Of a DNA stretch of 22,436 bases, positions 7,817 to 22,401 are shown piece by piece (the stretch's first letter is position 1; each line of letters opens with the position of its first letter). The position numbers and the translations under genes were made by a program. This DNA is from a virus: positions 1 through 22,436 of the IMG/VR virus record IMGVR_UViG_3300043429_000477, one strand, 5' to 3'. The notes below the pieces were generated by a model. The model saw only the letters and a list, made by a program, of their open reading frames with translations. It made no database searches and was not told where the DNA came from.

Positions 7817-8506
7817 CTACCTCTGAGGTCCGTGTTTGGCAATGACTTTTTCCCGCAACTCCGACTTCTTCAGTCGTTTGAGCGACGGGTCCTGCTTGAT
7901 CATCTTATCAGCATACTGCTTGACAATGTCGTCTGCCAACGGAACGCAGTTTTTCGGGTCTAGCGGATCGTTTTCGGGTTGCCTGCCGGTGGCTCGAACG
8001 CCACCCTCGGATGACCAACCTCTCTTGTCCAAGAGTTTCTTGATGTACGACCGACCCTGTGCCCGGGAGACGTATGCCTCTGGGTCGCCCTTAAATCTGG
8101 CAAGGTTCGGGAAGTAAACCGCGTTCTTGTCCGGAACGAACCCGTGTCGCTTGCTAGCCTGAAGGTTCCTGTCCAACGCCTTCTGACTGCCGAATTGCTC
8201 GTACAGCGGCTGCATCCCCTGGAAGAACGTATCGTCCGTCGAGAGCACCGGACCCTTCCGGAGCGACACCATCGAGGCCAATTTGTCGCCCTCCCCAGAC
8301 ACCCTCATCCGGAGGTACTGTGCCCCACGGGTGACGATCCCGGTCAGCGGCTCCATGCACCGAGACAGCAACTCCCGGTCTGCGTCCGGGTAGCCTTTCC
8401 GGATTTCCTCAGCGTCCGGTGGTGCGAGCAATAGATCCCTGAACTCTATCCAGTCTGGGTTGGACTTGATGAACTCGCTGTAAAACTTCTTGATTGCCTT
8501 CTTCAT
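7817..8506 (-). CDS. Hypothetical phage protein after the portal gene, 229 aa
   Basis: The ATG at 8506 overlaps the portal stop (ATGA) and has GAGGAAA just upstream. The product is strongly basic and soluble, with lysine-rich termini (MKKAIKKFYSEFIK at the start, SLKRLKKSELREK near the end) and no signal peptide or membrane span. The middle contains Tyr, Phe and Gly-rich stretches without a recognised motif. A gene coupled to the portal is often a minor head, ejection or maturation protein, and the basic character might suit DNA contact, but this is only position-based inference. Confidence 0.65.
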   Translation of the reverse strand: MKKAIKKFYSEFIKSNPDWIEFRDLLLAPPDAEEIRKGYPDADRELLSRCMEPLTGIVTRGAQYLRMRVSGEGDKLASMVSLRKGPVLSTDDTFFQGMQPLYEQFGSQKALDRNLQASKRHGFVPDKNAVYFPNLARFKGDPEAYVSRAQGRSYIKKLLDKRGWSSEGGVRATGRQPENDPLDPKNCVPLADDIVKQYADKMIKQDPSLKRLKKSELREKVIAKHGPQR

Positions 8507-10704
8507 TGTGGTTTCCTCGGCATTTGTTGTGCCTGTCGGAGTTTCGCTTCGTGAATCTCTCGCCCCTGCTGCATCATCGCCATGTGCTTGGCCTGACCCT
8601 GGAGGATCTCCGAGAGGGTCTTGGCTTCACTCGTGCGAAGATCCAGTTGGCTTTTGGCTGCATCGGACTCCATCTGCATCTGGGCCTTCTGGGCCTCGAT
8701 TGCAAGCTCTGCCTCAGACATCTGGCCTGACGCCATTGCGGCCTGTGCCTCCGCTGCGGACTTCTGGGCATCGGCTTCGACCTGTGCCAACTGGGCTTGC
8801 TGCATCCTCTGCTGCATCTCTGCCTGCATCGGGTCAGGTTCCTGCGGAGGAGGAATCTCTGCACCTTCAAGGTCCGCATCGTGGTACTCAGCCCACTTCC
8901 GCATCAGGAAGTTGAACGGTTCGTAGTTTCCGGACGCCGCTCCGTACTGCTGCATGATCGGCAGGAACATCCCGGCAATCTGCTGGAAGTTGGCGATGTC
9001 CCTGTCTCGGTTTGGCCTACGGATCGATGCCGACTCGATCGTGTACTCGAACTGGCGAGTCACCAGTTCCACGTCCGTATTGACGATTAACTGGTCCCAC
9101 AACGCTGCGCCGTACTGGCCGAACATCGGAGCCACGTCCTCGCCCCGGACGAACCATCGGGTCACAAAGGCTTCGCTCTGGGCAACCCTGCCCTGCCACT
9201 TGACCACCTGCTTCTGCATGAACTCCGGCCGGGCAGACACGGCACGGGACTTGGCGACCGTCTCCTCGGCTGTCCTGTTCTGCGTTCCGTCCTGGTTCAA
9301 TCCGTAGACGAACTGGGTCAAGCCAACTCGCTTGTCGAACATGTCTGAAACGAACGCGATCAACTTGGACATGTCCTGCCTGGTTTCAGGCTGCTGAAGG
9401 ACTGTGATCGCCTTGCTGATGTCGTCCACGCCGAACGGAGTCGGAATGATCTGTTGATCCTCGCCGTTCATCAAGTAGTCGCGGTAGTGCTCGACGTGCG
9501 GAGAGGCTACCGCCCAGAAGTCCCTGCTGCTCGTCCACACTCGGTTGGCAAGCCACGAGACCAAGAAGTTCAGCAACTTGAGTTCTCCCAGTCCGGGAGC
9601 CAGCGGTGCGATCGGCCACGAGGACTGAGGATCGTGATAGAAATCGAGAAATTCGACCGGCCACCTGTCGTCTGCCCATAGTGGAACCGGCCACGAGAAG
9701 GCGTTCCTAACGTCGTCGTCCGTGGCTCCTGCCCGGAACTTAGACGTGGGCATGTTCAACGGCCACGGCACGTCAGGACTGATCGCCAGATAGGCGTACT
9801 GCCCGACCACGTTCTCCATGTGGTTCTTGATGCCCTCCTCCATCGAGGTGTATCTCGCTCCACAACCAGCCTTGGAGTAGATCTCGTACCAGACGATGTT
9901 GTCTCCGGTCTGGCCTGCTTGCCGTCTGGCATCGCCTTCGTAGTCTGTATCCCACTCGGAATGCGACCAAGAACTCTCCAGAGTTGACTTGTTCTTCAGG
10001 CTGTCTCGCTCCAGCCCGAACCGCTTCTCGACCTCGTAGTGAGGCTGGACGTGTCGGATAGCCATCCACCGACACTCGTCGATCTGATTGAAATCTGGAT
10101 CGGTCAGAACGTCGTAGGGATCGATGTAGAACGCTCCGGTCAGGGTTCGACCCGAACCTGGCATCTTGTAGTTTCGAGGCGTCAGGCAGCCTCTGCCTTT
10201 GATCAGAGCGTCGATGACCGCTCGCTCCGAGTGCCCCTCAAGACCACCGGAAGGCATCTCCCGTGGTGTGTAGTTGAGCCAGCCAGACATCAACGCTGCA
10301 ACAGCCTCGTCCCTAGCATTCTCTGCCTGCTGTGCCTGCTGGAACTGCTGATATGCCATCATGCCTTGCTCGTCCGCACCAAAGATCCCCGGTGGGAGTT
10401 GCAACTTCCTCTTGGACTTGACCGTCCTGTGCGGAGATTCCCACATTAGGTTCGGCCCGAAGATAGCAACCAACTCGAACGCCTTGTTGATTGTGATCCT
10501 GAACCTCGGCAACTTGACGTTCTTCCAGAACTTCTTGCTGTATTCAGGGTCCCACATCGCTTGGGCTGAATTGGCGTAGAACATCGTGCATTCCTCCGCG
10601 ATCTCCATCCATTGAGATCTACCCTCTTTCGCCCTCTCGATCTTAGAGATCCAGCCAGCGACAACCGGTCGAAGGAAGTCGTATTCTAGTACCTTCTTGT
10701 CCAT
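8503..10704 (-). CDS. Portal protein, 733 aa
   Basis: Portals form the 12-mer ring at one capsid vertex through which DNA is packed and ejected. Size (733 residues), place five bases after a small gene downstream of the large terminase, and general character support this call. The N-terminal region is helical and aromatic (SRQWMEIAEE-like packing around residues 30-60). The centre (about 330-480) alternates Trp, Pro and aromatic residues as in the wing and stem of large portals (WPLNMPTSKFRAG, QSSWPIAPLAPGLGELKLL). From about 620 to the end the chain is Gln, Ala, Met and Glu-rich and predicted helical, a probable barrel or coiled coil. The ATG at 10704 lacks a strong ribosome-binding site and may rely on coupling. 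The ATGA overlap links it to the next gene. Confidence 0.82.
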   Translation of the reverse strand: MDKKVLEYDFLRPVVAGWISKIERAKEGRSQWMEIAEECTMFYANSAQAMWDPEYSKKFWKNVKLPRFRITINKAFELVAIFGPNLMWESPHRTVKSKRKLQLPPGIFGADEQGMMAYQQFQQAQQAENARDEAVAALMSGWLNYTPREMPSGGLEGHSERAVIDALIKGRGCLTPRNYKMPGSGRTLTGAFYIDPYDVLTDPDFNQIDECRWMAIRHVQPHYEVEKRFGLERDSLKNKSTLESSWSHSEWDTDYEGDARRQAGQTGDNIVWYEIYSKAGCGARYTSMEEGIKNHMENVVGQYAYLAISPDVPWPLNMPTSKFRAGATDDDVRNAFSWPVPLWADDRWPVEFLDFYHDPQSSWPIAPLAPGLGELKLLNFLVSWLANRVWTSSRDFWAVASPHVEHYRDYLMNGEDQQIIPTPFGVDDISKAITVLQQPETRQDMSKLIAFVSDMFDKRVGLTQFVYGLNQDGTQNRTAEETVAKSRAVSARPEFMQKQVVKWQGRVAQSEAFVTRWFVRGEDVAPMFGQYGAALWDQLIVNTDVELVTRQFEYTIESASIRRPNRDRDIANFQQIAGMFLPIMQQYGAASGNYEPFNFLMRKWAEYHDADLEGAEIPPPQEPDPMQAEMQQRMQQAQLAQVEADAQKSAAEAQAAMASGQMSEAELAIEAQKAQMQMESDAAKSQLDLRTSEAKTLSEILQGQAKHMAMMQQGREIHEAKLRQAQQMPRKPQ

Positions 10705-11185: not shown

Positions 11186-12949
11186 CTAGACTCCAGCACC
11201 GAGCGTGACAACACCTTGCTCCTCGGTTTGGCCTCGAATTAACTGCATGGCTTTTCGGTACGCACTCGACCCTTGGCGTCTGTAGAGCGTTGGCTCGACG
11301 TAGGCCGTGCCCTCGATAAACAGTTGCTCCATGTGCGCTGCGGCGTATTCCGTGCAGGCCATCAAGTCGTACAGCCTCGGGTTGGCAGGCTCGTCCAGCA
11401 CGGCATCGGAGTCAACGACGCGAGAATCCCGCTTCTTCATGTACTTGGTGAACTCACGCTTCGTCTCCGGACACTTGTCGTCAATGATCATCAGCGACGG
11501 AATGCCTACACCAGCCACAGGCTCCATCAAGTTTCTGACCGCTCGATACCGGGTCGTAGGAACGTCACACCCAGGCATGAAGTCGTAGCTCGTCTGGCGA
11601 GACACCAGCCCAGCACCACGGAATGCCATCGAGAAGTGCATCCTCGTGTTCGTGTCCCTACCCGCGTGCGTCTGCCTACCTGCCCGATTGTCGATGATGT
11701 GGCACTCGTAGTGCTTCGACCCACGCCTGTTCGATATGGCCTGTGCGATCGCCTCGGCAGTCATTCGCTTACATACCAACTCCCACTCGCAGATCATCAC
11801 GTTGCCGACGAATACACCATCGATTTCATGCGGAGGAATGGCCCACGACTGTATCCCTGTCCGAGTGTGAGATGGGTCCATGATCAGGTATCGAGTCCAG
11901 TCGTTCGGCAACTCGCCAAGCAACTCGTAGATACTACGAAGTTTCAGATAGGCATTGGATCTCGTTGGTTCGTAGATGTGTGCATCATTCTTCCTGCGAA
12001 GGCAATGAACGTGATGGTCGAACGTGTACATCGAGTACGCATCCATGTTGACTTCGCCACGGTCTCGACGTGCAATCTCCTCCTCGCTGCCCATTCGCTC
12101 CAGAGACGCTTCTTTGTTCTCCTGCGATATGAACGGGTTCTTGCTCATGATCAACTGAACCCGCTGAATCCTTGGGTTCTCCTGGATCGAGCAGAGTTCT
12201 GCACGTTCAATCAACGAGATCAAGGCAGGGTTCTTCATGTGTGGCCAAACTGACCACAACAGCCACCCGTTCTCGTCCGTCAGACGGTCCTGCCATTCCT
12301 TGACGTGATCCGAGAACGCAACGTCCTCATCAATCCAGATACCAGAGATGGCATCGCCTTGCTTCGGCTGTGGACTCGTAGACGGGTATGCGTAGATCTT
12401 GGCACCATTTGTGAGTTGCACGCTCTTGAACATGTTTCCTCGCTTGTCCTCCCATTCCCAAGAATCTTGAATGATCATCCTGTCTGGGATTAAAGGCTCG
12501 GTAAGTTCAGACTCGCCGTTGCGAGCAGTGTCTGCCTTGCTAGCACGATTGAATGACCTCCAAAGACCTGTCTTTTCGTCTGGGATGCAGCGGAATTGTC
12601 CACCCATGCCAGACTGGAACAACAGCCTGTGGATCGTCTGGCCTATGTGGTTCCAGTCGTATCCGATTACCCAGTAGATTCTCGGGTAATTCTCATTCGC
12701 TACAGGCCACCGTGGTTTGAACACCTTGCCTGTCGAGTCCTTGATCGGGATACCAGTGACACGGCTGGCAAACTCCATCGCAACGCTCACGGACTTGCCG
12801 CTCCGCTTCCCCCCAGATACAAGCAACTCGATCGCCGTGCTGCTGTGAATAGGCTCCTGCTGCTCGTAAGGGGTGTAGACCCGAACACCCTCGCGAGCAC
12901 GCCTGTTCTGCTCGATGCTGATCTCGGCTAGGCGTCTGAGGTCCGTCAT
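11186..12949 (-). CDS. terL: Terminase large subunit, 587 aa
   Basis: TerL is the ATP-driven motor and nuclease that packs the genome into the procapsid through the portal. The ATPase half shows a Walker A variant GGKRSGKS at 46-53, preceded by a hydrophobic strand (AIELLVS), and a Walker B with catalytic acid in GIWIDED (203-209). The nuclease half shows an RNase H-like first strand with Asp358 (RYLIMDPSHT), a second acid at Asp420 (HIIDNRAG) and a late Asp in RLYDLMACTEYAA. The length is normal for the family. The ATG overlaps the stop of the probable small subunit (ATGA), the usual arrangement. Motif order and neighbours make this one of the safest calls in the window. Confidence 0.93.
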   Translation of the reverse strand: MTDLRRLAEISIEQNRRAREGVRVYTPYEQQEPIHSSTAIELLVSGGKRSGKSVSVAMEFASRVTGIPIKDSTGKVFKPRWPVANENYPRIYWVIGYDWNHIGQTIHRLLFQSGMGGQFRCIPDEKTGLWRSFNRASKADTARNGESELTEPLIPDRMIIQDSWEWEDKRGNMFKSVQLTNGAKIYAYPSTSPQPKQGDAISGIWIDEDVAFSDHVKEWQDRLTDENGWLLWSVWPHMKNPALISLIERAELCSIQENPRIQRVQLIMSKNPFISQENKEASLERMGSEEEIARRDRGEVNMDAYSMYTFDHHVHCLRRKNDAHIYEPTRSNAYLKLRSIYELLGELPNDWTRYLIMDPSHTRTGIQSWAIPPHEIDGVFVGNVMICEWELVCKRMTAEAIAQAISNRRGSKHYECHIIDNRAGRQTHAGRDTNTRMHFSMAFRGAGLVSRQTSYDFMPGCDVPTTRYRAVRNLMEPVAGVGIPSLMIIDDKCPETKREFTKYMKKRDSRVVDSDAVLDEPANPRLYDLMACTEYAAAHMEQLFIEGTAYVEPTLYRRQGSSAYRKAMQLIRGQTEEQGVVTLGAGV

Positions 12950-13536: not shown

Positions 13537-15099
13537 TCATCCTTGTCGGTTGACCTGAATGTGGACGATGCTGCCTTCTGCAACGCACTCGCAGTGCTTC
13601 AGATTCCACGTAAGGAAGTCGTCTGAAAAAGCCTTGGCGTGCTCATCGCTCTTAGTGAGCACTAGCATCTTGCCACCTTCCGTGACGTGCTTGAGTGCCT
13701 CAATGGCGTCAAAGGCGTTCTCTGGCTGGATCTTAGAGTACGAGTAAACGATGAGGTCAACGTCTTGTGGCTCAAACTTGCTGTAATTCGCCATCAAGAT
13801 TTCTGCATATCTACCTCCGTCTTTCGTAGACGCCGAACTTCCGATCCTCTTTTCCTGAATGTTGGCTGCTGTCTGATTATCGACAATTCGATAGCAGTCA
13901 ATGTTTTTGTTTTTGCAGATAACGGAATGCGAGACGATTCCTGTCTGGTCATTAAGCGTTATCACTCTCGCATGGCCAGGCGCTGCAATGCCCGAAGCGA
14001 TCTGATTGACTCGCTCCAGCGACTCCTTCGATACGCCCTCCTTTGATAGATCCACCTTTTCGCCAAGAACGATCTCGGTCTGCTGGACCGGCTCATGCTC
14101 TGGCTCGTCCTCTCGGATTTCCATGATCGGCCCTTCATACGGAGGTAGCGAATCGGTCGTGTCAACGTAGACGCCCCTGTCGTGGACAGAGACGTTGCTC
14201 TCGACTGCGTGACGGAACATGTTGCAGACCGCCTCGATCGGAAGGTTCGTTGGCTTTCCGACGCACTTCGGCTTCCAGTGACCTGCCCACGAATCCCAGT
14301 TGCAGAACACGACAGGCTCGCGATGCTTGAGCACGCCTGCCAACTGGATCTCCCGAGTGTTCGTCACGTCCTCGGTACTCTCCTTCTTCGTCCTGCGGTG
14401 GTCGGTCTCGTAGAAGAACCAACCCTGCCTGTTGAGCAACTGAATCGCTCGCTCCTTCGTGTGTTTGCCTGCGAGCAACTCGTCGAGGATCTGCTCCTTC
14501 GGGTACGTCGGAGGGAACAGGTCGAAACTGTCCATCGAGTACATGATGACCCCGGTCGGACCCGCTCCGATCGGATGAATCCCAGTCATCATCGCCGCAT
14601 GGTCACGGCTGTACGGCGTCAGTTCGATCGGTCCCAGCGGAGCGTCCGGATCTCGGGTCTCCTTGTTGCCGAAGTAAAAGACGTAGACGTTCTCCAAACC
14701 GCCTCGAATGTCGTCCGGTGGAGGCCCGCAGTACGGACAACAGACCACCGTTGGCAACCCGTGGATCTTCCTCTGGTACAGGAAGTGGAAGCTCGAATCC
14801 CAGAAAGGCTTCGCCTCTGGATTGTGACCGACGTACTTGTCGATGAAGTTGTCCGAGTCGAGCATGATCAGAACGTCGTAGCCATTGTCCTTGGCGTACT
14901 GAACGATCTTGTTTCGCTCTACGTCCAGCGGAATGTCGCCGAACCTGCCCCAGTCAAAGCGTCCTACACGCTCGTCCTTGCTGGCCTTGAGTGCCGTCTC
15001 GGCAAGCCAGTCGGAATGGGATGGGATGATCGTTGAAACGCTACCGTTCCCGCCGAAGGTGAGGAACGCAACGAACACGTCTAACTTAGGAACCTGCAT
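13537..15099 (-). CDS. Glycosyltransferase-like protein with C-terminal Rossmann-like domain, 520 aa
   Basis: Residues 1 to about 230 resemble a GT-A glycosyltransferase: an opening strand (PKLDVFVAFLTFGG), DVERNKIVQYAKDNGYDVL, then LIMLDSDNF with DSD at 81-83 as the candidate metal and nucleotide-sugar site. A second cysteine pair (CCPYCGPP, about 119-126) may bind metal. After a Glu-rich linker near 320-345, residues about 375-518 look like a nucleotide-binding Rossmann domain of the methyltransferase type: ARVITLNDQTG, then VDLIVYSYSK, EALKHVTEGGKMLVLTK. No clear GxGxG SAM loop is seen, so activity is doubtful. The start lacks a good ribosome-binding site. It sits between capsid and terminase genes, so the sugar acceptor may be virion protein, DNA or host surface; this is inference. 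Confidence 0.6.
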   Translation of the reverse strand: MQVPKLDVFVAFLTFGGNGSVSTIIPSHSDWLAETALKASKDERVGRFDWGRFGDIPLDVERNKIVQYAKDNGYDVLIMLDSDNFIDKYVGHNPEAKPFWDSSFHFLYQRKIHGLPTVVCCPYCGPPPDDIRGGLENVYVFYFGNKETRDPDAPLGPIELTPYSRDHAAMMTGIHPIGAGPTGVIMYSMDSFDLFPPTYPKEQILDELLAGKHTKERAIQLLNRQGWFFYETDHRRTKKESTEDVTNTREIQLAGVLKHREPVVFCNWDSWAGHWKPKCVGKPTNLPIEAVCNMFRHAVESNVSVHDRGVYVDTTDSLPPYEGPIMEIREDEPEHEPVQQTEIVLGEKVDLSKEGVSKESLERVNQIASGIAAPGHARVITLNDQTGIVSHSVICKNKNIDCYRIVDNQTAANIQEKRIGSSASTKDGGRYAEILMANYSKFEPQDVDLIVYSYSKIQPENAFDAIEALKHVTEGGKMLVLTKSDEHAKAFSDDFLTWNLKHCECVAEGSIVHIQVNRQG

Positions 15100-15128: not shown

Positions 15129-15353
15129 CTAATCTCCGAACCTAATTGCGTCGAAAGCACTGCACATTGCCTCTCGGACCTTGCGGACTGCTACCGACTG
15201 GTCTGAACTTGGCTTCGAGTTGGAGACGATCGTCATAGCCAAACGCTTGGCGTCCATCCGGATCTGTTCTACTTCAGACCCGTCCTTCTGCGCAATGTTC
15301 GGCTTGGACTTGTCACCAAACCATTCGTCGATCTGTTGTCGCGAAATAGCCAT
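15129..15353 (-). CDS. Acb2/Tad1-like small protein (candidate anti-CBASS/anti-Thoeris sponge), 74 aa
   Basis: The ATG at 15353 is chosen because the longer frame to 15422 runs through a terminator-like hairpin. The last 46 residues match by eye the helical hairpin domain shared by phage Acb2 and Tad1 nucleotide sponges: IRMDAKRLAMTIVSNSKP, then SSDQSVAVRKVREAM and AFDAIRF, with the pattern IRxxAKxLAxxI, PxSxxQSxAxxKxxEAM and AxxAI. Known members are similarly small, form hexamers and sequester cyclic di- or trinucleotides (Acb2) or gcADPR-type signals (Tad1), blocking CBASS or Thoeris. Many phages carry relatives without proven activity. The N-terminal part (MAISRQQIDEWFGDKSK) differs from the members I remember. 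The gene follows a terminator within the head operon, so it may have its own or read-through expression. Confidence 0.6.
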   Translation of the reverse strand: MAISRQQIDEWFGDKSKPNIAQKDGSEVEQIRMDAKRLAMTIVSNSKPSSDQSVAVRKVREAMCSAFDAIRFGD

Positions 15354-15375: not shown

Positions 15376-15414
15376 CGATGGGGCCTGTACCGTCTGGCGA
15401 TACAGACCCCATCG
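15376..15414 (-). terminator. Rho-independent terminator-like hairpin after the decoration gene
   Basis: Arms at 15376-15389 and 15401-15414 pair over 14 positions with one G-T pair, leaving an 11-base loop. On the minus strand the stem is followed by GGGG and then TTTT at 15367-15372, so the U tract is short. It begins 19 bases past the stop of the decoration-like gene and ends about 23 bases before the Acb2-like start. It probably lowers transcription from the abundant capsid genes into the genes beyond. Confidence 0.6.
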
Positions 15415-15432: not shown

Positions 15433-16038
15433 TCAGCGAACGTCCAGGTAGGCCAACATGTTTGCGTTGGTCTGAGCCGTGGTCATCGCTGAAACAACCC
15501 GAGCGAATCGGTTGACGATCGCCGCTGCGGTGTTCGTGGTCGCTGCGGTCGCAAGGACAGCGGGACGACCGGCAGTCGTTGCGCCGCTCGTTACCGCAGT
15601 CAACGCCACGAGAACGTCGCCTTCATTGAACACGTTCCCGGCGTCTCCGGCGAGAGGCGTCTTGAGCAAGACGTGCCCCTTGACGATCAGCCAGAACAGG
15701 TCGTTGTTGGCAACGCCGGTCGATGGCAACTGATCGTCAACAACACCGGCAACTTCGCCTGCCGTGGCATTCGTGTATCCATCGACCTGCCTTCGTCGCT
15801 GCCCAGTTTTCCACCGGACCTGTCGTCCGCCAAGAAGCGTTCCACCGGAGACGTTCCGAACCAAGATCGCTTCGACGACATCGTCGCTTCGCTTGATCCG
15901 AACTCCGGGGCCGTCCGGGTAGTCATCGGCAAAGGCCATCGGGTGCCCCTCGATCGCCTTGGAACTGTCAATGTTCGCAGGGGTCCCGCCGTGGTAAGTG
16001 TAACCTCGCTTCGGCAGGCCCGTGACTGTATCAGCCAT
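15433..16038 (-). CDS. Probable capsid decoration or head-stabilising protein, 201 aa
   Basis: The ATG at 16038 has GAGGA nine bases upstream. The gene directly follows the major capsid gene. The protein is rich in Gly, Ala, Val and Thr and mainly beta: VVEAILVRNVSGGTLLGG, NDLFWLIVKGHVLLKTPL, NEGDVLVALTAV. Its C-terminal third is Ala and Thr-rich (AVTSGATTAGRPAVLATAA) and ends in LAYLDVR. Capsid-adjacent proteins with this size and beta-rich, Ala/Gly-rich character include decoration proteins of the DUF2190-like kind, although I cannot confirm the family by eye. A hairpin terminator follows the stop, consistent with the end of a highly expressed capsid unit. Confidence 0.6.
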   Translation of the reverse strand: MADTVTGLPKRGYTYHGGTPANIDSSKAIEGHPMAFADDYPDGPGVRIKRSDDVVEAILVRNVSGGTLLGGRQVRWKTGQRRRQVDGYTNATAGEVAGVVDDQLPSTGVANNDLFWLIVKGHVLLKTPLAGDAGNVFNEGDVLVALTAVTSGATTAGRPAVLATAATTNTAAAIVNRFARVVSAMTTAQTNANMLAYLDVR

Positions 16039-16100: not shown

Positions 16101-17216
16101 TTATGCGTAAGACTTGATCTTCGCGAAATGCTTCGGCTTGTACTCCACGTTTCCGTAGAATCCGATGCCCCACAGGTACGACCAGTTGCTGCGTGGGTCC
16201 TTATCAGGGCCTTCGTACCAGAACAACTGCGGAGTCAAGGCGTGGATCTTCATCTGATTGACGTTGATGAAGTATCCGGTCCCAACTGGGCAGTCGAAGT
16301 CCGGGTAAAGTCCGACGCCGTCTTGATTGAGCGTCATTCCGAACCCAAGGTCCTCCGACTCCTTGTGAGGAACCGTGATCCTGGTCTTGACTTCCTGGGC
16401 GTTCTTGTAGCCCTGGAACAAGTCCGAGGCCATCGCTCCAAGCGTCGGCATACCGTCATCGCCACCAGTCGTGGTGAGCCAGGTAATGGCCTGAGAAACG
16501 ACTCGCCAAGCGTTGGCTTCCCAAGTCGTCGCACCAGTGCCCCAGTTCGAGGACGACCAGTTGATCAACTTCGGTGAGTTGAAGTCGTACTCAGAGGTTC
16601 CGGAACCGTCAGGCCAGTCCGTCGCGATCGTCGCGTTGGGCTTGGTGCTCAACGCACTCGACCACGAACCGCCGTAAGCGCCGAGTTGGGTCGACAACTG
16701 ACCCAAGCCGTAGGTATCGCTCGGGACAGCAATTCGGTCGGTGGCCGCACAGGTGCCTGCACCCATGAAGGTCTCCAGACCGTGGATCGCATTCTCGCGA
16801 CCAGCAAGACTGCCGTCACGATACAACTCGCCAGCGAACGTGTCTGTGATCGCTTTCCGCAGGTTGTTCGTCTTGGACTGGAACAGGTTGACCAGTTGCT
16901 CAGTCCCTCGGTTCATGAGGTTCTGCTTCTGGGTCAACGTGTCGGTCCCGACATACGCACCCCAGTCGATCGACACCTGTCGGTACGCCCGGTGGTTCGA
17001 GAAGTCGAGGACGGAACCGTCGCCGTTCTGCGTGATCGGAGGCTGACTGAACTCTAGCTGCCAAACGAGTTCGGTCCCGCTCGCATTGAACGCGACTCGA
17101 CCTCGCTTCTGTGCCTGTGCAAGCAATAGCCGCTTGCGCATAGTCATGTCCGAAGCACCCTTCATGTACTTCGGCATTGTGGTTTCGACTATGCCAATCC
17201 ACTCGTCTGCTGCCAT
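16101..17216 (-). CDS. Major capsid protein, 371 aa
   Basis: The ATG at 17216 has AAGGA seven bases upstream. The length and features fit an HK97-fold coat protein: a helical charged N-terminus (MPKYMKGASDMTMRKRLLLAQ), an extended beta region (ELVWQLEFSQPP, RAYRQVSIDWGAYVG), a long helix (EQLVNLFQSKTNNLRKAITDT), a Gly, Ser and Trp-rich surface domain at about 180-240, and a C-terminal beta region (FDCPVGTGYFINVNQMKIHAL, WGIGFYGNVEYKPKHFAKI). The gene follows the scaffold-like gene and precedes the decoration-like gene, the normal head order. No protease is seen upstream, so a separate scaffold rather than a fused delta domain is likely. The exact coat family is not identified. Confidence 0.8.
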   Translation of the reverse strand: MAADEWIGIVETTMPKYMKGASDMTMRKRLLLAQAQKRGRVAFNASGTELVWQLEFSQPPITQNGDGSVLDFSNHRAYRQVSIDWGAYVGTDTLTQKQNLMNRGTEQLVNLFQSKTNNLRKAITDTFAGELYRDGSLAGRENAIHGLETFMGAGTCAATDRIAVPSDTYGLGQLSTQLGAYGGSWSSALSTKPNATIATDWPDGSGTSEYDFNSPKLINWSSSNWGTGATTWEANAWRVVSQAITWLTTTGGDDGMPTLGAMASDLFQGYKNAQEVKTRITVPHKESEDLGFGMTLNQDGVGLYPDFDCPVGTGYFINVNQMKIHALTPQLFWYEGPDKDPRSNWSYLWGIGFYGNVEYKPKHFAKIKSYA

Positions 17217-17226
17217 CTTTTAATCC

Positions 17227-18384
17227 TTACCTGGAGAGTAATTGAGACCGGGTGAACAAAGTATCCAGATCAGCTTCGGTGTTGATCTGAAGGCCCGGGT
17301 CCACACCCGGTCCAGTAGCGTTTGGCGAGTATGCGTTTGCATTCCTCGCCTTCTCCAGAAACGATTGTTGCGGACTCTGGCTTGGTGGAGGCACTGCCGG
17401 TGCGACAGGTGCCGGTGCAGGGGCTGCCTGCTTGCTTGTTCGGTTATTGAGGCCCGTGATGAACAAGGCCTGCTGGATCGCTTGGCTAGGCTCTAACCCT
17501 TGGGCGTACATGGCCTGCACGGCACTGATGAGCCTTTCTCCATCTTGGGTTGGTACCTGCTGCTTCGTGACCGGATCTTGCGTGTAGATCCACGAGGCGT
17601 TCTCCGACTCGAACTTCTCGATCACGTTTTGAGTCGTGGTCTGGTTCTGGATCTCTGCGATCCTCTGCTGGACAATCCGGTCGACTTCTCGAAGGATCGG
17701 GTCCTTGGTGACGTTGTAAACGTCTTTGTAAAAATTGCTGCGGGTGATCCCCTGCCACTTCTGGCTAATTGCCCGAGCGGACTCGTTCATCTTGGGCAGG
17801 ATTGGGTTGGCAACACTCTCAAACCCAGGCTTGGCGATATACATGCCAGTCGCTGGGTCCTGAGTAACAATGCCGCTCGTGATCGCCTGGTCGTATTCCG
17901 GCGACCAACTGACTCCCCACTTCTCACCGAAGTAGGCGTCTGGGTCAAATTCGTCCGACTTCTTGACCGGATCTGCCTTTGCAGGCTCTGGAACGGGCTT
18001 CTGTGCAGCCATCTGCTGCTGTGCCACTTTGAGTGCGTGCATGTTCTGCAACGCCACCAAGAGGGCTTCCTCGGCACTGGATTCGTCTGCGATGTCGAGG
18101 CCCATTTGGCGAGCAGACTTTCTCAGAATCGACAGCGTATCGTCCTGTCTTTGCTGTGGAGGCTCGACAGCAGGAGGCGGTTGTACCGGAGTAGGCCCCG
18201 GAGTCGGCAAAACAGGGTCTGGCTGTGCGGGAGGAGGCTGGACTGGCTCAACTGGAGGAGGACTCGAAGGAGCAGGCGTAGGGTCAGCGACCGGAGCCTG
18301 TGGTGCAGGTGCCGTAGCAGTCGCAGCAGCAAGTGCATCGGTGAACTCGCTTCCGCTCAACGTCGAATCGTCATCAAGTCCCAT
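17227..18384 (-). CDS. Probable capsid scaffolding protein, proline-rich, 385 aa
   Basis: Scaffold proteins guide coat assembly and leave or are degraded before packaging. The N-terminal 80 residues are Ala and Pro-rich and probably disordered (ATATAPAPQAPVADPTPAPS, QPPPAQPDPVLPTPGP). The middle is acidic and helical with Gln-rich stretches (LLVALQNMHALKVAQQQMAA, QQRIAEIQNQTTTQNVIEK). The C-terminus is another Ala/Pro-rich region (about 322-345) and a last helix ending TRSQLLSR, where scaffolds usually bind coat. The start chosen is ATG at 18384; a TTG four codons upstream is possible. The gene lies 10 bases before the capsid gene, the standard scaffold position. Low complexity, charge pattern and place support the call. 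Confidence 0.72.
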   Translation of the reverse strand: MGLDDDSTLSGSEFTDALAAATATAPAPQAPVADPTPAPSSPPPVEPVQPPPAQPDPVLPTPGPTPVQPPPAVEPPQQRQDDTLSILRKSARQMGLDIADESSAEEALLVALQNMHALKVAQQQMAAQKPVPEPAKADPVKKSDEFDPDAYFGEKWGVSWSPEYDQAITSGIVTQDPATGMYIAKPGFESVANPILPKMNESARAISQKWQGITRSNFYKDVYNVTKDPILREVDRIVQQRIAEIQNQTTTQNVIEKFESENASWIYTQDPVTKQQVPTQDGERLISAVQAMYAQGLEPSQAIQQALFITGLNNRTSKQAAPAPAPVAPAVPPPSQSPQQSFLEKARNANAYSPNATGPGVDPGLQINTEADLDTLFTRSQLLSR

Positions 18385-18585
18385 CAGATTACCCAAAGTG
18401 TGCGGTTGTTACGCAAATCATTACGCGACTTTCAATTCGCGAATCAGATGTATTTAACACACTTGAACAGTGGTGTGCAACTATCTTGGGAATTTCTAGG
18501 AAAAATCACTTGATTAAATTTTCTGTCGCGAATATGACATTAAGTATCAGTCTTTTCGTTACTCAAACCGTAAATTGGAATTACA
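18385..18585. promoter_or_regulatory. Divergent control region between scaffold and recombinase genes
   Basis: This 201-base region is more AT-rich than its surroundings and lies between the minus-strand head operon and the plus-strand recombinase. On the plus strand TTGATT (18510-18515), a 17-base spacer and TATGAC (18533-18538) form a moderate sigma70-like promoter for the recombinase. On the minus strand the signals are weak; TTGAAA (plus 18431-18436 region) lacks a good -10. A perfect 10-base palindrome ATTCGCGAAT sits at 18435-18444, beside two TTACGC direct repeats near 18414-18426. These could be operator or recombinase binding sites. No coding frame is supported here. Confidence 0.45.
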
Positions 18586-19614
18586 ATGATAGCCGTTGAT
18601 AAGTTGTTCGACCCGAAAGCAGCACAGAAGATGATTTCCGAGGCTGCACTGCACGATGCTCCGATGAAACGACGCAAGGTCACGGCGTTGCCGACCATCA
18701 ACACCCGTCGTGAAGGTCCTCCTGTAGCCTTCGCATACGGTCGTGTCTCATCGTTCTCGCAGTACGAGAAGGACAACTCGATTCCAGACCAGAAAGTGCG
18801 TGCGAAGCGGTACTACGAGATGTACCTGAAGGACAACGGTGTCGTCTGGGGCGACTTCCACGAGGATGGAAAGGGGATGTCAGCCAGCAAGACCCCGTTT
18901 GTGGACCGTCCTGCCGGAAGAAGGCTGGTCAATCAACTCCGACCAGGAGATCACCTGATCATCGACAAGATCGACCGAATGTGGCGCAAGGTTTCCGACT
19001 TCTGCCGGATGACCGACTGGTTCGCGGAGAACAGGATTACCCTCCATATCGTCAATATGAACGGCGTTTCGCTCAATAGTGACACTCCGATGGGCAAGGT
19101 GATCCTGACCATGATTGCGAGCTTCGCAGAGGCTGAGGCCACCATGCTGTCTCAGCGCATTCGGGATGGATTGTCGTCTAAGAAGATGAACGGCGAACCT
19201 ACTCAGTTGATGCACGGGACTATGGCCGTGACCAAGAACAACCGGGAATACGTTGTCTGGGACATCGAGAAACGCAAGATCATGAAAGAGGTTGTCAGGC
19301 TTCATGACGACGAGCACTACACGTTCGTCGAGATCGCAATCGAGATGGAGAACCGGCGCAGGGTTGAGGCTGGACTCTCCAAGATGACTCCAATCCTGAA
19401 GAAGATGTGGATCACCCAGCCTCGGAAGATGATGTGGGTCAGGCCCTACTGGATCGAGAAGGGTATCAAGATACTCGGGATTACCGACCCGTCTCAGTTA
19501 CCGAGGTACTCGAACTTGTTCTCGGTTGCAAAGAAGTTCAACGCAGAGACCATGCCTGACTGGGAGAATGTCAGGCTTTCAAAACTGGCAGGACGCAAGT
19601 CAATGATCAGCTAA
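18586..19614 (+). CDS. Serine recombinase (resolvase/invertase family), 342 aa
   Basis: Serine recombinases cut and rejoin DNA through a phosphoserine link at short sites. The catalytic domain lies at about 46-200: AYGRVSSFSQ with Arg53 and Ser55 as the expected catalytic pair, PDQKVRAKRYYE, a turn DGKGMSASK, DRPAGRRLVNQL, IIDKIDRMWR with Arg131 and Arg134, and IASFAEAEATMLSQRIRDGL leading into the long helix. A 45-residue N-terminal extension precedes it. The C-terminal 140 residues are helical and basic and lack the cysteine-rich zinc ribbon of large serine integrases, so it is larger than a simple invertase yet smaller than an integrase. The gene is on the opposite strand from the virion genes and its end overlaps the RuvC-like gene by 15 bases. 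Confidence 0.88.
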   Translation: MIAVDKLFDPKAAQKMISEAALHDAPMKRRKVTALPTINTRREGPPVAFAYGRVSSFSQYEKDNSIPDQKVRAKRYYEMYLKDNGVVWGDFHEDGKGMSASKTPFVDRPAGRRLVNQLRPGDHLIIDKIDRMWRKVSDFCRMTDWFAENRITLHIVNMNGVSLNSDTPMGKVILTMIASFAEAEATMLSQRIRDGLSSKKMNGEPTQLMHGTMAVTKNNREYVVWDIEKRKIMKEVVRLHDDEHYTFVEIAIEMENRRRVEAGLSKMTPILKKMWITQPRKMMWVRPYWIEKGIKILGITDPSQLPRYSNLFSVAKKFNAETMPDWENVRLSKLAGRKSMIS

Positions 19615-20067
19615 GTGATCAATTGCGTACTGTGCAACAGCCAGGGCTGACCATGCGTGCGACTTGACACGGTAAAGTGGCCCTGGCTCCTTCTTGGTTC
19701 CAATCGCTTTAGATCCGCCGTACATGTCGATTAACGCCTGCCTGATGTTGCCGTCTTTGGCCCTGGTGGTTCCGCACAAATTAACCTTGATCTGGTTGCG
19801 GTAGACCAGCTTGGTCACTCCTGGCCAAGCCTCCATGAACCTGCCTATCCACACGCAGGTCTCGAATACCTCCTTGCCGACTGCCATTCCCATCGATCCG
19901 ATCATTTCCATTGCTAAGATCGTCGTCGGGATGCGGTCAAAGTGCTCGCGGAGCATGAGTTTTAAATTAAAATTGTCCATGACTCCGCAGTCGTGGATGA
20001 GGCCTGCGTCGTTATCGATGATGACGTATCCGCTCTGGGTTGTTCCTGGGTCTATTGCGAAGATCAT
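19600..20067 (-). CDS. RuvC-like Holliday junction resolvase, 155 aa
   Basis: RuvC-type nucleases cut branched DNA, in phages often to resolve replication or recombination intermediates before packaging. The RNase H-like fold starts with FAIDPGTTQSGYVIID, giving Asp6 as the first metal ligand. Glu54 follows in ILAMEMIG, and the C-terminal motif is SHAWSALAVAQY, where His138 fits the His of Thermus-type RuvC but the following acidic position is Ser141. The start is the ATG at 20067, which overlaps the Nudix stop (ATGA); an ATG at 20076 is possible. Length is close to RuvC's usual size. Whether activity survives the Ser substitution is unknown, but related phage proteins also vary here. Confidence 0.8.
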   Translation of the reverse strand: MIFAIDPGTTQSGYVIIDNDAGLIHDCGVMDNFNLKLMLREHFDRIPTTILAMEMIGSMGMAVGKEVFETCVWIGRFMEAWPGVTKLVYRNQIKVNLCGTTRAKDGNIRQALIDMYGGSKAIGTKKEPGPLYRVKSHAWSALAVAQYAIDHLADH

Positions 20068-20693
20068 AGCATCCATTTCCTTATGTCCTTGAACAGCCCT
20101 TCGATAACCATCTGGCTCCAAGTCTCGTAAAGATCAATCTCACTGACGATCTTGCTGATTGGCTCAAGCCTAGAATCAACAATGCTCGGATCTTTCGGCT
20201 CGATTGATGGTCGATGAAGTTCCATCAAGCCAAGAACTCCAAGGTGAACTCGTCCAACCTCGTTCGATGGGTCATATATCGTCCCGAATACAGACTTTCC
20301 GTTGTATTCGCCGACGCTAACCTCCTCGTGTATTTCTCGCTGCATTCCTGTATCAAATGGGCATATATACACCGGCTTTGTGTCCGACTCGTTGATGTGT
20401 CCACCGATCCCTATGGACCTCTTGGAGTGCAGCCTGCCTTCTCCACCCTTTGCTCCACGGCAATAAGAGAAAACATTCACACCAGATCCGTCCGGTGGGC
20501 GATAGAAGAACACGACATAAGGGATGATCTGGAGATAATTCGGATCGGACTCTGCAACCGATCTTGGAAGAAACGTCTTAGCAAAGAGTATAGGATCGAG
20601 TTTTGTCATGCTGAAAAATGATAGCCCCGCATTTTTGGTAAAGACCTTGGCTCTGTTAGCCGGTATCACCAAAACCTGTTCTTCCGACTCCAT
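20064..20693 (-). CDS. Nudix-family hydrolase, COG4112/MutT-like phosphoesterase, 209 aa
   Basis: Nudix enzymes hydrolyse nucleoside diphosphates linked to another group. The order of conserved stretches matches the predicted MutT-type phosphoesterases of COG4112 as I remember them: EEQVLVIPANRA at the start, QIIPYVVFFYR (55-65), FSYCRGAKGGEGRLHSKRS (75-93), GIGGHI (95-100), then after an insert MQREIHEEVSV (117-127) as the Nudix box half REIHEEV, and a later RVHLGVLGL strand. The Nudix box is interrupted compared with the consensus. The ATG at 20693 has GGAG and GAGAG just upstream. The gene overlaps the RuvC-like gene, and a strong terminator lies 28 bases upstream. The substrate could be a nucleotide, damaged dNTP or signalling nucleotide; none can be chosen from sequence. 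Confidence 0.75.
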   Translation of the reverse strand: MESEEQVLVIPANRAKVFTKNAGLSFFSMTKLDPILFAKTFLPRSVAESDPNYLQIIPYVVFFYRPPDGSGVNVFSYCRGAKGGEGRLHSKRSIGIGGHINESDTKPVYICPFDTGMQREIHEEVSVGEYNGKSVFGTIYDPSNEVGRVHLGVLGLMELHRPSIEPKDPSIVDSRLEPISKIVSEIDLYETWSQMVIEGLFKDIRKWML

Positions 20694-21930: not shown

Positions 21931-22401
21931 TCAAGCATCAGGAACCGGCTCTATCACTCTGGCAAGGACCAATTTGTCGTAGTTCTGGATGTGGAACTCA
22001 CGCAACGCCTCTCGATTGATTGGCTTGGGATACCAAACCGCGTAGCCCTCCCAAGTCATGACTGTGGTCAAGTTCATCGGCACTCCGTTCCTTGTGACCC
22101 AGAAGTCCGCAACGTAGCGCCCAAACTTCTCCTGTTCCTCCTTGTTCCTGATCTTGTGCGTCTGGATCATGTACTCCTGACCGATCACAAGCATCTTCTG
22201 GACGAAGGCCTTGGCAGCCTCTCCTACAGCCCTGATCCTTGGGTCTGGATCGTCAGTCTCTGCGGTGTCGATCTTCCTCAGCCTCAGTGGAACGTCGTGC
22301 TTCCAGTCGCTGAAGCCTTTGTCGATGTCCACAACGATCGTGTCACCGTCCTTGTGGCCCCTGATGATGCAAGGATATTCCCTGGTTTTCATTATTGACA
22401 T
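21931..22401 (-). CDS. SNase-family (thermonuclease-like) nuclease, 156 aa
   Basis: Staphylococcal-nuclease-fold enzymes cut DNA or RNA with a calcium-binding OB-fold. The order of motifs fits: YPCIIRGHKDGDTIVVDID near residues 9-27 with the DGDT loop, VPLRLRKIDTAETDD at about 36-50 with Arg and the Asp/Glu cluster, then EEQEKFGRYVADFWV (about 88-102), where GRYVADF replaces the usual GRxLAxV, and a final helix-rich segment with AVWYPKPINREALREF. There is no signal peptide, so it should act in the cytoplasm, perhaps in host DNA breakdown or nucleotide recycling. The ATG is at 22401; a second ATG three codons in is also possible. It follows the end of another gene by three bases. Confidence 0.85.
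   Translation of the reverse strand: MSIMKTREYPCIIRGHKDGDTIVVDIDKGFSDWKHDVPLRLRKIDTAETDDPDPRIRAVGEAAKAFVQKMLVIGQEYMIQTHKIRNKEEQEKFGRYVADFWVTRNGVPMNLTTVMTWEGYAVWYPKPINREALREFHIQNYDKLVLARVIEPVPDA

Follow-up and report, generated by a model that had tools for sequence, protein, structure and literature searches.

A small head-operon protein of an environmental tailed phage, placed by sequence comparison in a divergent branch of the Acb2/Tad1 hairpin family

The 74-aa protein encoded at 15129-15353 of a 22,436-base virus record (the window, meaning the whole stretch of DNA that was analysed) is supported by sequence comparison as a divergent branch of the Acb2/Tad1 hairpin family. That family is already known, widespread and large. 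What is new is the clade to which the protein belongs, in which a conserved motif has been lost, and an alignment that ties an unannotated group of proteins, marked by the motif FTYHxP, to the binding residues of Acb2. A function as a sponge for immune signals is plausible; it would probably not operate through the classical cyclic-dinucleotide site.

The gene and the head operon

The ORF lies on the minus strand, with an ATG at 15353, a TAG at 15131-15129 and a coding part of 15132-15353; its product is MAISRQQIDEWFGDKSKPNIAQKDGSEVEQIRMDAKRLAMTIVSNSKPSSDQSVAVRKVREAMCSAFDAIRFGD. The M-A-I start is kept in six of the seven clade sequences, and the seventh has a TTG start. There is an in-frame TTG 23 codons upstream of the ATG, but translation from it would traverse the upstream stem-loop. 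The C-terminal residues described in an earlier, sequence-only reading of this DNA are present (IRMDAKRLAMTI, PSSDQSVAVRKVREAM and AFDAI). In the second of its patterns the residues hold but the spacing is one position too long, the actual arrangement being P-x-S-x-Q-S. The same reading placed the gene between capsid and terminase genes, which is correct but loose: the 201-aa gene separates it from the major capsid gene, and a 520-aa and a 194-aa gene separate it from the terminase large subunit (TerL).

The order of transcription is 389-aa gene, major capsid gene, 201-aa gene, stem-loop, 74-aa gene, 520-aa gene, 194-aa gene, TerL, 142-aa gene and portal. The features are as follows.

17227..18396, minus strand: 389-aa gene preceding that of the major capsid protein, a probable scaffold judged by position alone
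16101..17216, minus strand: major capsid (head) protein (phrog_9953 major head protein, 1e-19)
15433..16038, minus strand: 201-aa protein encoded immediately downstream of the major capsid gene, probable decoration or cement protein by position only
15376..15414, minus strand: 17-bp stem-loop followed by GGGGTTTTAA, terminator-like, between the 201-aa and 74-aa genes (z = -4.0)
15129..15353, minus strand: 74-aa protein of the Acb2/Tad1 hairpin family with a divergent N-terminus (ORF, PF24729, phrog_1454, relatives' profile, AlphaFold2)
13537..15099, minus strand: 520-aa protein downstream of the 74-aa gene, a conserved neighbour in clade loci (cluster c6)
11186..12949, minus strand: terminase large subunit, TerL (PF03237, 3.5e-5; phrog_2, 1.6e-11)
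8503..10704, minus strand: portal protein (phrog_1216, 5.7e-8; SU10_portal, 1.6e-6, below cut-off)

The 389-aa, 201-aa and 520-aa proteins have no match in Pfam or PHROG. The 201-aa gene is syntenic in the clade loci, and the place of the 74-aa gene between it and the 520-aa gene is fixed in the clade; L010 has an additional small ORF there. By eye, the 520-aa protein has a glycosyltransferase-like N-terminus and a methyltransferase-like C-terminus; in L016 the gene at the place of the 520-aa gene opens with a methyltransferase-like stretch.

Upstream of the head operon and on the opposite strand is a serine recombinase (18586-19614, plus strand; PF00239, 3e-25; phrog_95 integrase), which suggests a temperate phage or an invertase. 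A Staphylococcal-nuclease homologue is found at 21931-22401 (minus strand; PF00565, 2e-7). Inspection by eye suggests a resolvase of the RuvC type and a NUDIX-like protein at 19600-20121 and 20064-20693 (minus strand); Pfam matched neither.

The corresponding gap holds a strong stem-loop in four further lineages (z = -6.5 in L010, -2.9 in L011, -3.8 in L013 and -4.3 in L025). A simple consensus scan did not list the window stem-loop, in which the T run is short. Because a strong stem-loop precedes the gene in all five lineages, the 74-aa gene probably opens a new segment after a terminator. The gene is under purifying selection: dN/dS is 0.21 between the window and L001, with only 12 differences, and 0.21 between L011 and L013. 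L016 and L018, whose capsid gene is related, lack it at this position.

Family placement

PF24729 (Acb2_Tad1_hairpin) is the single Pfam-A match of the 74-aa protein (15.2 bits, E = 0.024; 24,736 families, E up to 10). The curated cut-off of this family is 27 bits, so the protein on its own falls under it; the other clade members score 16.3-17.1 bits, and all six clade members scanned match the family. There is also a match to phrog_1454 (E = 3e-5), a family of unknown function. The window protein had no match in PADLOC or NCBIfam, nor among annotated phages by tblastn. Sequence searches of the PDB with the protein, the clade and the full family gave nothing meaningful beyond a weak match to 9ptq.

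Homology to the Acb2/Tad1 hairpin, which the sequence-only reading had claimed, is borne out through intermediates. PF24729 is matched at E < 0.01 by 77 of the 81 aligned wider relatives (best 1.3e-18), and its cut-off is passed by L037 (46 bits), L047 (54), Tunturi_1 gp101 (45) and T4 Acb2 (71.4). A profile of 74 relatives from outside the clade found the window protein at E = 1.9e-15, while among 10,000 shuffled sequences the best reached 0.035; aligned with the non-clade relatives' profile by hhalign, the protein gave E = 4e-24. The clade was the starting point for collecting the relatives, but its members are excluded from the test profile, and the shuffles give the scale. Because the relatives' profile and the intermediates link this sub-threshold protein to PF24729, we regard the family homology as settled. 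When the profiles of T4 Acb2 and the relatives were compared directly, the match was weak (E = 0.004, probability 9%), and it was used only jointly with the Pfam coordinates.

Relatives and their distribution

Near relatives came from viral contigs, and the capsid protein led to phages further removed that have a small ORF in the corresponding position. The alignment search reached the intermediates L031 and L030, which carry WFTYHAP/LFTYHAP plus SADQSxAxR, and a scan of viral contigs from these gave 262 confirmed relatives, 80 of which were kept. A first scan of a genome collection found no relatives; a second found 11, in genomes or bins of bacteria, among them Acidobacteriota, Planctomycetota, Chloroflexota and Calditrichota. 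A host search with the capsid protein gave no match in 10 relative-carrying genomes and 294 genomes of the phylum of L124 (Planctomycetota, according to the record title). The results give no indication of CBASS or Thoeris in the host, which the sequence-only reading had expected if the protein were functional. A family consensus probe, used for fetching records only, retrieved 456 phage records, and 1,213 records were found for T4 Acb2.

The window's clade comprises seven sequences on one branch with support of 99/96, in a tree built on only 72 columns and with rough inner forks. In an alignment of six clade sequences, which are 31-95% identical to the window protein, 17 columns are invariant. 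The contexts of the wider relatives vary: some lie beside terminase- or portal-like genes and others among genes that look by eye like replication genes, and in Gordonia phages the hairpin-family gene adjoins the portal gene. Such variety is as expected of an accessory gene.

Residues lost and retained

The relatives carry F-T-Y-H-x-P ahead of the hairpin. The Pfam match begins at profile position 1 both for T4 Acb2 (residue 7) and for L037 (residue 13); therefore Tyr8 of T4 aligns with Tyr14 of the relatives. Conservation among the relatives is close to complete at Tyr14 (72/74), His15 (73/74), Pro17 (72/74), Tyr/Phe28 (73/74) and Asn67 (74/74). All seven clade members have lost the Tyr, the His, the Pro, the second aromatic at position 28 and the hairpin Asn67. 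The divergent N-terminus pointed out from the sequence alone is what matters most in that reading: the lost segment is the almost invariant Tyr-His-x-Pro of the relatives, with the Tyr that aligns with T4 Tyr8. The window protein has Asp14 at the Tyr position, and the clade has no conserved aromatic at or near it; a loop Tyr is present in a single member, L013.

Other residues are retained. Phe12, Arg32, Asp51, Arg57 and Arg60 are present in all clade members or all but one, and Arg32, which aligns with Lys23 of T4 Acb2, is invariant in the clade and the relatives. This basic residue stands 15 positions after the Tyr: it is Lys23 in T4, and Lys or Arg in 66 of the 71 relatives with the YH motif. 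In Pseudomonas-phage Acb2 we take the dinucleotide-binding Tyr to be Tyr11 and the basic residue 15 positions on to be Lys26. Going by the register of the final helix, Arg57 of the window corresponds to Thr68 of T4 Acb2.

In T4 Acb2, Tyr8 is needed for cyclic-dinucleotide binding and the Y8A mutant is binding-deficient (PMC12657218, PMC12657230); T68M lowers binding affinity (PMC12657230). As the Tyr aligned with T4 Tyr8 is lost, a classical cyclic-dinucleotide site in the window protein appears unlikely.

Predicted structure

An AlphaFold2 monomer model built with an 81-row alignment (mean pLDDT 87.3) has helices at 5-12, 26-45 and 50-72. The first two are joined by a loop in which residues 19-21 are uncertain (pLDDT < 50), and a tight turn precedes the third. 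The paired helices expected of the family are present in this predicted fold, and a control relative is predicted to fold in the same way (pLDDT 94.6). The model is all-helical and has no strands; the N-terminal antiparallel beta-sheet of the Tad1 type is absent from the 74-aa protein. Foldseek matched neither the target nor the positive-control relative to a solved Acb2 or Tad1 in the PDB, and this negative is treated as uninformative because the control also failed. Among predicted viral structures, the nearest named matches are mostly 'Acb2/Tad1 hairpin domain-containing protein' (TM 0.47-0.73), mostly of high probability and with E values from 0.25 up.

Comparison with known hairpin proteins

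The closest comparison is with the FTYHxP or phrog_1454 subfamily (Tunturiibacter phage Tunturi_1 gp101; L030, L031, L037-L126), which shares a length of about 70 aa, a helix-loop-hairpin arrangement and the core DQ[ST]xAxRKxREA. The window's clade differs from it in lacking Tyr14, His15, Pro17, Tyr28 and Asn67, in a longer loop and in its fixed head-operon position. The nucleotide sponge T4 Acb2 (Vs.4) has the Pfam domain in common with the window protein, and the basic residues Lys23 and Arg32 are aligned; however, Tyr8 is not conserved in the window protein, the inter-helix segment of T4 is much longer, and the T4 gene sits beside vs and regB rather than in a head operon. Acb2 of Pseudomonas phages (PaMx/PaP2 p26) has the same Y-x14-K spacing as the FTYHxP relatives and T4, whereas the Tyr is lost in the clade and there is no direct profile match. 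With Tad1 the protein has the C-terminal hairpin (PF24729) in common, but a beta-sheet forms the N-terminus of Tad1 (PMC12043709), and the window protein is shorter and modelled as all-helical. 'Acb2 homolog 43' (PDB 9ptq) gave a weak end-to-end match to the family profile, which is not significant (E = 0.22).

Two records bear on the annotation of this family. In L036 (PaMx41), a TAG breaks the acb2 frame at 24000-24345 once 36 codons have been read (annotated ORF24), consistent with the short and long gp24 that have been described (PMC12043709). In Paenibacillus phages, hairpin-family genes are labelled 'phosphomannomutase' (e.g. MG727698 38158-38298 and MH460826 35118-35300), which looks like a propagated misannotation.

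Possible functions

The best reading, which we hold with about even confidence, is that the 74-aa protein is a divergent single-domain accessory protein of the hairpin family, encoded in the head operon of environmental tailed phages, and that it sequesters a nucleotide-derived immune signal. It would oligomerise through the hairpin, like Acb2, and would sequester the bacterial signal during late gene expression, presumably holding it by the retained arginines R32, R57 and R60. Since the protein lacks the Tyr of the classical dinucleotide site, a molecule other than the cyclic dinucleotides bound by T4 and Pseudomonas-phage Acb2 is the likelier signal. As a speculation, late expression could reflect defences that detect head proteins, as ThsB1 does with the major head protein (PMC12043709). 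Counter-defence genes do not usually occupy a constant place in a late structural operon, and this counts against the best reading, as do the sub-threshold Pfam score, the residues lost throughout the clade, the lack of a solved-structure match in Foldseek (which the control relative also lacked) and the weak direct comparison of T4 Acb2 with the relatives.

The nearest rival is that a hairpin-family protein was recruited to a role in head assembly or the virion and ceased to bind a ligand; the missing Tyr-His-x-Pro would mark this change of function. The loss of the whole segment in every clade member, as one branch, and the fixed place between the 201-aa and 520-aa genes both favour such a role. 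It is weakened by L016 and L018: the gene is absent there despite the related capsid gene, and so is not needed for the head in these lineages. The strong stem-loop that separates the 74-aa gene from the capsid genes also speaks against it, and we consider a head role possible but doubtful. A more elaborate proposal, to which we give a low probability, is that the clade swapped the dinucleotide pocket for a site binding a different immune signal, and that its expression coincides with that of the head genes, at the stage at which defences that sense the capsid would be triggered.

A cyclic-dinucleotide sponge of the classical Acb2 type, in which another residue replaces the lost Tyr, would fit the correspondence of T4 Lys23 to the invariant Arg32. 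Such a replacement is improbable, given that Y8A alone makes T4 Acb2 binding-deficient (PMC12657218, PMC12657230) and that the clade offers no conserved aromatic in its stead. Still less probable is a decaying, functionless relic: conserved motif positions have been lost, but both dN/dS values and the 17 invariant columns speak against decay. Chance resemblance of an unrelated helical hairpin, to which the sub-threshold Pfam score and the lack of a solved-structure match in Foldseek might point, is scarcely credible, being excluded by the profile test and opposed by the graded intermediates that connect the protein to the family.

Significance

The FTYHxP subfamily is common in environmental phages, with 262 relatives from one viral scan, yet it is annotated as unknown. 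The aligned Acb2 binding residues make its function directly testable. The Tyr losses in the window's clade amount to a natural set of variants that separates the hairpin fold from the dinucleotide pocket.
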